Source of the DNA: an uncultured Caulobacterales bacterium | GTDB lineage: Bacteria > Pseudomonadota > Alphaproteobacteria > Caulobacterales > Caulobacteraceae | Assembly: GCA_903851655.1 (NCBI GenBank) | Contig: CAINOV010000210.1 | Span: forward strand, 1 to 33,198 | Length of the DNA: 33,198 bases | Direction of reading: 5' to 3' | Part shown: positions 1,885 to 7,282 of the stretch, piece by piece | Layout of the letters: every line of letters starts with the position of its first letter | Position numbering within the stretch: position 1 is the first letter of the stretch | The notes under the pieces: generated by a model | The model's database searches: none | The model's input: only the letters and a program-made list of their open reading frames with translations | What the model was told of the DNA's origin: nothing | Made by a program: the position numbers and the translations under genes

Positions 1885-3810
1885 TTGAAAAGAACGCCAC
1901 GCCTCCTCGAGAATCAGATCGAGACATTCTTCGACGTTTCGCTGGATCTTTTGATAATCCGTGACGACGAAGGCAATATCGTTCGGATGAATGCAGCCTG
2001 GAAAGAGACTCTAGGCTTTGACGTTTCGGAACTCGAAGGCCTTTCACTCCTGTCTCTCGTGCATCCTGAGGACCTCGAGTCCACGATCGAGCACATGGCT
2101 CGGGCAAATCGCGAAGAAAACGTCGTAGGATTCATCAACAGATATCGCCGCCGGGACGGGACCTATCGCCAGCTGGAGTGGCGCGCGCGCCGCTCCGGCG
2201 ACCTGGTCTTCGGGATCGCCCGGGACGTGACGGACCAGCTCGCCGCGCACGACGCGCAGCGCGCCCTCCAGCGCCAACACAACCTGATGTTCGAGCATGT
2301 GCGCGCTGGAATCATCCTGCACGACGCCACGGGCGCGGTGATCTACGCCAATCCCCGGGCCGGCGAGCTGTTCGGCGTCCGGTCGGACGAGGCCCGGGGC
2401 GCGGCGCTGGCCGACGCCCGCTGGACCCTGGTGCGCGAAGACGGATCCCTGCTGCCCGTCGAGGAGTATCCGGTCAGTCGCGCCCTTTGCACCGGGCGCA
2501 TGGCGTCCAACCTGCTGATCGGCATCAAGACCCCGGCCGAGGAGCGGATCACCTGGGTGATGGGTAACGCCATCCCGATCTTCGAGGGGGGGGCGACTCC
2601 CTCGAAGATCGTCACCAGCTTCACCGATGTCACCCAGCTCAAGGAGACGGAGCAGGCCCTGGCCGTCGCCAGTCTCAAGGCCGAAGCCGCAGCGGAGGCC
2701 AAGTCGCAGTTCCTGGCGAACATGAGCCATGAGATCCGGACGCCGCTGACCGGCGTGCTGGGCTATGCGCGGATGATGCGCGAGATCGCCGGCCTGCCGA
2801 CCGAGGCCGTCGCCCTGATCGAGAAGATCGAGGCCAACGGGCACATCCTGCTGTCCACCGTGAACGACGTGCTCGACTTTTCCCGGCTTGAAGCCAACCT
2901 GGTCAGCTTCACCTATGCGCCCGCCGATGTGACGGCGGTGGTCCGAGACACGCTCAACCTGTTCGAGCTCGACCTCGCCCAGAGGCGCCTGAAGATCGAT
3001 CTTGTCGTGGCCCCCGGCGTTCCGGACACGGCGAGTCTCGACGCCAACCGCCTGCGTCAGATCCTGATCAACCTGATCGCCAACGCCATCCGGTTCACCC
3101 CCGCCGGAGGATTGACTGTAAGCCTGGGCTACGATCCCGCCGAAGACCGGCTGCGGTTCGAGGTCGCGGACACGGGCATCGGCATCGCCCCCGGCGATCT
3201 TCCGCATCTGTTCGAGCGGTTCAGTCAGGCGGACGTGTCGACCACCCGGCACTTCGGCGGGGTGGGGCTGGGGCTGGCCATCTGCAAGTATCTGGCCGAG
3301 CGCATGGGCGGACGGATCGGCGTGGAGAGTGTCCTCGGCGCGGGCAGCCGGTTCTGGTTCGAACTGCCGCCGCAGACTGCGCTGGGCATGAGCCCGGCAG
3401 ACGCTGACCCCGACGCCAGCCCCACGCCGTCGCTCCAGGGCGTGCGGATCCTGGTGATCGATGACAACGAGATGATCCGCGACCTCGCCCGCCGCATCCT
3501 GGAGGCCCTCGGCATGGAGGTGGAGACGGCTGTGGATGGCTTTGACGGCGTCGCCAAGGCGCGGTCGCAGGCGTTCGACCTGTTCCTGATCGACCGGCAG
3601 ATGCCGCGCCTGAGCGGCGAGGCCGTGGCCGAACAGATCCGCACCCTGCCCGGCGGCAACAGCACCCGTCCGCTCGTCGCCTTCAGCGCCGACGTGATCG
3701 GGGACCTGGCGCCGGTCTTTGACGGCTGGGTCAGCAAGCCGATCGATGTGGCGCACCTGGCGCGGGAACTGTCCCGGCAGCTGGTCGCCGATCGTCGGGC
3801 CGCGGTGTGA
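1885..3810 (+). CDS. PAS-containing hybrid sensor histidine kinase (PAS-PAS-HisKA-HATPase-REC)
   Basis: PAS repeats, H-box '[19 protein letters not shown]', N box '[16 protein letters not shown]', G boxes 'DTGIGI'/'GVGLGLAI', C-terminal receiver 'VLVIDDNE...[13 protein letters not shown]...SKP'. TTG start with GAGGAG at 1871-1876. Confidence 0.93.
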
Positions 3811-6115: not shown

Positions 6116-6336
6116 GAACCCCCCTGCCCCCGATGACCGCGCCGAACGGGCGGATTAAGGCAGGCGTCGGCGGCGACGTCAAACGGGCGTCCTCCGGGAG
6201 GGTTTGCGGTCCCTCCCCCTGGCGCGCTATACTGTGGGCGTGTTTCGACTGGACGGACGCCGGCCGGACGGCGCCGCCACGGGAGCGCGCGCATGGGGCC
6301 GCCGCAGGTCCCCTTGACCCTCGAGGAACGAATGCC

Positions 6337-6636
6337 ATGAGCGACGCAGTCGGCCCCGGCGATCTGGTGTTGTGCGTGAACGCCGCCCCGAACCATGTCA
6401 CGGGCCGGCCTGTCCCCCTGCGGGCGGGGGAGACCTATCGGGTGCTCTCGGTCTGGGACTATGCCTGCCCCTGCGGTCGGTCTGACGCCCTGCTGGACGT
6501 GGGCGTCGACTTCGGATGGTGCCAGTCGCGGTTCCGGCTCCTGCCCAAGCCCAAGGCCCAGGCCCGGCCGCAACAGGTCTCCGCGCCGAAGGAAAAGGAA
6601 AAGGAAAAGGAAAAGGAAAAGGAAACGACCCGCTGA
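6337..6636 (+). CDS. small protein with Lys-Glu repeat tail
   Basis: MSDAVGPGDLVLCVNAAPNHVTGRPVPLRAGETYRVLSVWDYACPCGRSDALLDVGVDFGWCQSRFRLLPKPKAQARPQQVSAPKEKEKEKEKEKETTR; ATG preceded by GAGGAA. Confidence 0.75.
   Translation: MSDAVGPGDLVLCVNAAPNHVTGRPVPLRAGETYRVLSVWDYACPCGRSDALLDVGVDFGWCQSRFRLLPKPKAQARPQQVSAPKEKEKEKEKEKETTR
6588..6625 (+). repeat. GGAAAA hexanucleotide tandem repeat
   Basis: Five consecutive GGAAAA units (6591-6620) plus flanking partial copies, encoding (KE)n in-frame. Confidence 0.9.
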
Positions 6637-6665: not shown

Positions 6666-6685
6666 CCGCGGGACTAGGCCCGCGG
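6666..6685. terminator. candidate hairpin between convergent genes
   Basis: CCGCGGG-ACTAGG-CCCGCGG. The loop contains the stop codon (CTA on plus) of the minus-strand receiver gene. Confidence 0.35.
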
Positions 6686-7282
6686 CGGCCGGCGCGGATT
6701 GAGCATGGCGTCGATGTCGCTCTGGTCGAGGTTGTGCCCGCTCGGCTCGCCGACCTCGAGGGGCAGGTCGTCCCACCGCCGACCATCGGTGCCAGGGGGC
6801 GGGCCGATGGAGTGGAACCGGCGATCCGGACCCAGATAGACCTGACACTCGACGAAGGCGCGACTGTCCCGCGCCACCCAGATGATCCGGTCCAGCAGGA
6901 TCTTCGGCGTCATCGGCCGCGTGATGATGAAATCCGCGCCGCAGTCCCGGGCCTTGGCCACCTTGGACATCGGGCTGTGACTGCACAGGATGATGGCCGC
7001 CATGAAGCTGTTGGGGTTCAGCTTCGCCCGCCGAAGCCAGTGGACGAGATCATAGCCGTCCGATCCCTCCAGGGCGGCTTCGCAGATCAGCAGGTCGAAT
7101 TCACGGGTCTTGAGCAGGTCCTTCGCCACATAGGCCGTCGGCGCCCGCTCGATCGACCGCACGCCGAGGCCCTGCAGCAGTTTGTAGGTGATATCCAGTC
7201 CCCGCTGGTTGTCCTCCACCAGCAGCACCTGCGCATTTTCCAGATTGTAGCGTGGCTTTGGCGCGGCCGGCGGCTTGGTCAC
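6674..7282 (-). CDS. response regulator receiver-like protein with degenerate active site and C-terminal FliM-like motif
   Basis: AQVLLVEDNQRGLDITYKLLQGLG... has the receiver fold signature. The phospho-Asp position reads 'LLICEAALEGSDG' (D->E) and the Lys position reads 'IITRP' (K->R). C-terminus is NLDQSDIDAMLNPRRPPRA. GTG start. Confidence 0.85.
   Translation of the reverse strand: MTKPPAAPKPRYNLENAQVLLVEDNQRGLDITYKLLQGLGVRSIERAPTAYVAKDLLKTREFDLLICEAALEGSDGYDLVHWLRRAKLNPNSFMAAIILCSHSPMSKVAKARDCGADFIITRPMTPKILLDRIIWVARDSRAFVECQVYLGPDRRFHSIGPPPGTDGRRWDDLPLEVGEPSGHNLDQSDIDAMLNPRRPPRA

Follow-up and report, generated by a model that had tools for sequence, protein, structure and literature searches.

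The question raised by this locus is what a CheY-like receiver without the residues of phosphorylation may do at the flagellar motor, and why its own C-terminus resembles the peptide of FliM to which CheY binds. The gene lies at 6674–7282 of the window, i.e. of the whole 33,198-nucleotide stretch that was analysed (contig CAINOV010000210.1 of assembly GCA_903851655.1, an uncultured Caulobacterales bacterium), and is placed, as are all features of its protein given below, on the reverse strand. It starts with GTG and encodes 202 amino acids. An earlier note, made from the letters alone, had described a degenerate receiver with a FliM-like tail, and the features quoted there are exact: VED, LLICEAALEGSDG, IITRP and the tail NLDQSDIDAMLNPRRPPRA. 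The open reading frame (ORF), Pfam, the comparison with a second copy in the same genome and the alignment with CleA identify the product as a receiver protein of the CleA/CheYIII type, and the lack of a CheE-like gene downstream marks it as an orphan copy.

Identity of the protein

Relatives of the gene, suspected in the earlier note to exist in Caulobacterales, were found at E <= 1e-25 in 44 of the 150 genomes that represent the order, and its own genome carries a 61% identical paralogue on contig C400. The orthologue of C. vibrioides is found within a chemotaxis operon, cheR-cheB-cheYII-cheD-cheU-[gene]-cheE, where cheD was identified by Pfam and the remaining genes are named from their sequences and from the known che1 order. 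Positions D67, R111, RR153 and R167 of the published CleA (CC0440) are D, R, RR and R in this orthologue, an exact match, and align with E68, R112, R154/R155 and R168 of the window protein. The window gene is therefore, with high confidence, a paralogue of CleA/CheYIII, and the supposed kinship to the c-di-GMP-binding CheY-like (Cle) proteins is confirmed and narrowed to CleA. Homology with CleA of C. crescentus extends over the full length and includes the same Arg residues in helix α4 and in the Arg-rich region (ARR). The two proteins differ in that D67 and K121 of CleA are replaced by Glu and Arg in the window copy, which also stands outside the che operon and without cheE.

CleA is gated by cyclic di-GMP (c-di-GMP) and binds the N-terminus of FliM; both CleA and CleD do so via the Ile57-Asp58 motif of FliM (PMC5677366). 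It antagonises CheYII; for its function the phospho-Asp D67 is dispensable, but the Arg residues that bind c-di-GMP are required (Nesper et al. 2017, PMC5677366).

The FliM-like C-terminal peptide

The C-terminal peptide of the window protein is NLDQSDIDAMLN. Its residues 184–196 (NLDQSDIDAMLNP; 6695–6733) match a motif of the type [LM]xQx[DE][IV]Dx[LM][LM] in both pattern and profile searches and have the letters L.Q..ID..L in common with the CheY-binding motif of FliM (LSQxEIDxLL). The motif is N-terminal in FliM, a protein of the C-ring, but C-terminal in the receiver protein. FliM of the same genome reads LNQDEIDSLL at this place. Written as a degenerate DNA pattern, the FliM-type motif occurs at only three sites in the 3.85-Mb genome, namely FliM, the window tail and the C400 tail, and the reversed control of the pattern gives no match there. 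Against a profile built from 59 FliM motifs only, the window tail is the top-scoring place in its own protein (empirical p = 2e-4). C-termini of 66 of the 123 Cle-like relatives exceed the 99.9% level of a null of shuffled C-termini, a number not to be read as a frequency since the relatives were gathered with a profile including the tail and many of them are Caulobacter near-copies.

The 42 non-redundant tail-bearing proteins give the consensus N-[ML]-[SD]-Q-x-[ED]-[IV]-D-x-[LM]-[LMI]-K-P-x-[KR]-V-x-[LI]. They were chosen by a regular expression that leaves some positions free, and conservation extends to these (N preceding the motif in 40/42, Q in 39/42, D in 35/42 and P following it in 39/42). 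The motif holds 2.94 bits per column as compared with 2.43 for the receiver. Outside the order it is found almost at the end of the protein, a few residues at most from the last one, as in DLSQDEIDALFK, AMSQDQIDSLME and GLSQDEVNALLS. The tail noticed earlier is thus genuine and conserved, and by these comparisons its likeness to FliM in the window protein is not due to chance. The tail by itself had no match in the PDB, and no Cle protein was found in a search of viral contigs for more diverse members.

The FliM-like C-terminus is common to CleA and the window protein, the latter being nearer to FliM (DIDAML) than the former (EISNMM); the final residues are RRPPRA in the window copy and KVQI in CleA. 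Both the window and C400 tails have lost the basic-hydrophobic end (KPxKVxL) and retained the FliM-like core. Many Cle proteins are devoid of such a tail, e.g. the Cle-like protein encoded on contig C27 of the same genome, which ends with GADRDVFMI. On the receiver-domain tree, which is built from few columns and weakly resolved, the distribution of the tail requires no fewer than 17 changes, as compared with 28.5 for shuffled data; the tail is thus passed on within clades, yet has been gained or lost repeatedly. It is borne by each of the 35 copies for which the retrieved DNA includes cheD, and CheD is linked to none of the 20 tail-less copies with upstream sequence. FliM itself is present in 44/44 genomes of the order sample that carry the family versus 51/106 others (p = 2e-11), which has little weight because of confounding by taxonomy, whole families being without the gene.

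The receiver domain and its relation to the tail

The receiver domain occupies residues 19–133 (6884–7228; Pfam PF00072 Response_reg, E 3.3e-13). Alignment to E. coli CheY puts E23 and D24 at the acidic pair D12/D13. As had been read from the sequence, the site of the phospho-Asp (CheY D57, CleA D67) is occupied by Glu68 (7079–7081) and the conserved Lys (CheY K109, CleA K121) is replaced by Arg122 (6917–6919); the protein is thus deprived of the phospho-acceptor Asp and the conserved Lys of a phosphorylatable CheY. Lys119 of E. coli CheY contacts an Asp of FliM, and the corresponding position is Arg in 119/123 relatives.

The phospho-Asp is retained in 102 and the conserved Lys in 118 of the 123 relatives, while the tail is found on 68/102 Asp-bearing receivers versus 13/21 others (Fisher p = 0.80). 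The two substitutions and the tail, which the earlier note had combined in one reading, do not travel together. A replacement of lost phosphorylation by the tail was considered and rejected, as the tail is independent of the D-site. Conservation of the substitutions among homologues holds in part. In the source genus, each of the six genomes has Glu at the Asp site (CEA/CES) of its tail-bearing copies, and the change is fixed in these copies only; it is not family-wide. The Lys to Arg change is nearly private, being common to one other relative, and Lys is kept in all tail-bearing copies of the genus except the window copy. The alignments demonstrate that the phospho-Asp has been lost in the tail-bearing CleA of the source genus.

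The source genus has a further tail-less Cle-like paralogue (loci L107, L211 and L212) with Arg at the phospho-Asp site and Val at the Lys site, which, to judge from these residues, is an even more degenerate receiver than the window copy. Tandem pairs of Cle-like genes occur at loci L132 and L134 (genomes G344 and G230), one copy having Asn at the D-site, Leu at the K-site and a GPCRR variant of the ARR.

The Arg-rich region

The c-di-GMP-type ARR is formed by residues 141–172 (RAFVECQVYLGPDRRF..GPPPGTDGRRWDD; 6767–6862) and was defined as a tandem [YF]xGP[DE][RK]R following a single receiver domain (PMC5677366). Of the two copies in the window protein the first is intact (YLGPDRR), and the second has the altered form GPPPGTDGRR, which is identical in CleA; canonical Cle proteins, in contrast, have two intact copies. 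Together with the receiver and the α4 Arg, this region is common to the window protein, CleD and other Cle proteins. The α4 residue is Arg112 (6947–6949), equivalent to CleA R111 and CleD R113 and a hallmark of Cle proteins (PMC5677366); Arg occupies its position in 120/123 relatives. The alignments show that the c-di-GMP-type residues are retained in the window protein. The likeness to Cle proteins which the earlier note had seen in the Arg-rich end is real, but its location is different: the terminal RRPPRA was rejected as a c-di-GMP site, the ARR lying upstream. Binding of c-di-GMP has been published for CleD and for the CleA ARR together with the C-terminal region, whereas the isolated CleA ARR without that region does not bind it (PMC5677366).

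Possible mechanism and alternatives

The best explanation, to which we give an even chance when all its parts are taken jointly, is that the window gene arose by a duplication of cleA (cheYIII) specific to its lineage and stands as an orphan, its product being a c-di-GMP-switched motor regulator with a tail that docks on its own receiver and gates binding to FliM. The protein would be a CheY-like regulator of the flagellar motor switched by c-di-GMP and not by phosphorylation. As may be supposed from the published work on CleA, c-di-GMP would bind to the ARR, the receiver would then dock on the FliM N-terminus, and the docked receiver would displace phosphorylated CheY (CheY-P) and favour smooth swimming. 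The FliM-mimic C-terminal helix would dock on the α4-β5-α5 face of a receiver, most probably its own, and prevent that receiver from reaching FliM as long as the neighbouring ARR is not engaged by c-di-GMP; in this way the protein would carry its own competitor of FliM.

For the tail considered separately, we have moderate confidence that it docks on the FliM-binding face of a receiver, either its own or that of CheY, and gates FliM binding or competes with FliM. The published CleA data make plausible the docking on receivers proposed in the earlier note and add self-docking as a third option to recruitment and competition. Three points favour self-docking: the same motif, in FliM, is a known ligand of the CleA receiver; binding to FliM requires c-di-GMP, whose site lies next to the tail; and CleA requires the C-terminal region in order to bind c-di-GMP.

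The AlphaFold monomer model of the window protein, made with 14 rows of Caulobacter CleA, is too poor to place any part (mean predicted local distance difference test score 55, that of the tail about 46). Several observations weigh against this explanation. The motif is weakened in CleA of C. vibrioides/crescentus itself (LSDDEISNMM, with the Asp of EID lost). FliM is absent from two genomes outside the order that bear the tail (G357 and G193, 97–98% complete), so FliM mimicry is not the whole story there. The ratio of nonsynonymous to synonymous substitution rates (dN/dS) for the tail of the window copy is uninformative, about 16 codons being available, and the role of this copy may be drifting, as it has the Lys to Arg change and no CheE partner.

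Only slightly less plausible than self-docking is docking in trans, with CheY-P or further Cle proteins as targets. That the tail acts in this way, as a decoy or recruiting peptide which sequesters these proteins from FliM or brings them to the C-ring, is an explanation to which we assign a minor but appreciable probability. The tail motif is identical in kind to the CheY docking site, and cheY shares the operon with most che-linked tail-bearing copies. The C-terminal amphipathic peptide of CheZ binds the same CheY face as FliM; CheZ resembles the window protein in having such a peptide, but is a helical phosphatase without a receiver domain. The hyper-reversal caused by loss of cleA in Caulobacter depends on CheYII, and C-terminal extensions of Cle proteins were suggested to bring partners to the motor (PMC5677366). 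A decoy, however, must be abundant to titrate CheY-P.

It is unlikely that the main role of the tail is to contribute to the c-di-GMP site or to dock a CheE/HPt-like neighbour, with the likeness to FliM reflecting a shared short helix and not a shared partner. The need of the CleA ARR for the C-terminal region and the two tail-bearing genomes without FliM speak for it, as does the CheE-like gene found directly downstream of 108 of the 122 Cle-like genes with sequence available, slightly more often with the tail (72/77 tail-bearing versus 36/45 tail-less, p = 0.037). However, most tail-less copies have the CheE-like gene as well, the motif agrees with FliM at positions that were not used for selection, and it is the KPxKVxL end, not the FliM-like core, that the window and C400 tails have lost.

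Judged by sequence, CheE is a member of an HPt-derived family following Cle-like genes across Alphaproteobacteria (examples at L002:159-635(-), L039:10600-11070(+) and L127:2070-2642(+)). Many CheE-like members outside Caulobacterales keep the HPt motif (AHDMKGQGGSFGY), and 5 of the 9 tested match Pfam Hpt; members from Caulobacterales have lost the phospho-His. For one branch of c-di-GMP-responsive Cle receivers, spread across Alphaproteobacteria, we propose tentatively, and with somewhat less than even confidence, that its own copy of the CheY-docking peptide of the motor serves as a pseudo-FliM gate in cis (or a decoy in trans), that c-di-GMP decides, with no need of phosphorylation, whether the receiver docks on itself or on the motor, and that the usual partner is the HPt-derived CheE, deprived of its phospho-His in Caulobacterales.

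Finally, it is very improbable that the window copy is a decaying duplicate without a role of its own and its tail a leftover of the CleA ancestor: it is more diverged than the C400 copy, with the Lys to Arg change, no CheE partner and no clear orthologue in other members of the source genus, but its ORF is intact, the FliM-like core is retained despite 61% overall identity, and with dN/dS of about 0.3 overall and about 0.09 in the ARR the duplicate is under purifying selection.

Genomic context

The window copy is not in a che operon and has no CheE-like gene downstream; its neighbours are a short ORF with no assigned function and a gene for an MFS transporter. The che operon of the same genome on contig C395 (cheB-cheY-cheD-cheU) has no cleA within. 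The C400 paralogue is directly followed by an ORF of 158 amino acids; it has a cheE-like gene, but is itself located beside purD.

The peptide G-[DE]-[LVI]-[DE]-[LF]-F recurs at the C-termini of both CheD and CheU encoded in the same operons, which suggests a common docking partner: CheD ends with GDVDLF or GDLELF in most of 37 proteins and CheU with GELDFF in most of 29 (L039:9043-9993; che-operon loci, e.g. L027:2097-3043 and L213:1327-2299). A hybrid histidine kinase (PAS-PAS-HisKA-HATPase-receiver) is encoded at 1885–3807 (+) of the window, 3 kb from the gene. A perfect 6-bp tandem repeat, AAGGAA, in 6.2 copies is located at 6589–6625 (+) and encodes the (KE)n C-terminus of a short convergent ORF (6133–6636) without a Pfam match.

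Significance

The Cle family and the binding of CleA to FliM are already known. In the eLife Cle paper (PMC5677366), in which motif and C-terminal terms were looked for, LSQxEIDxLL is discussed only for FliM, and the same is true of passages of the follow-up Cle paper. A literature search that covered only a minority of subscription papers, figures and supplements did not reveal any description of this motif at the C-terminus of a Cle protein. The FliM-mimic tail on CleA-type proteins, conserved in many relatives, appears to be previously undescribed.

A FliM-mimic at the C-terminus of CleA offers a simple and testable answer to how c-di-GMP may enable FliM binding without phosphorylation, as well as to the question why the binding of c-di-GMP by CleA requires the C-terminal region. 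The hypothesis can be tested directly in Caulobacter, where deletion strains, the FliM ID57WA mutant and reversal assays exist. If true, it would mean that a receiver can be regulated without phosphorylation, by a self-docking decoy of its own target.
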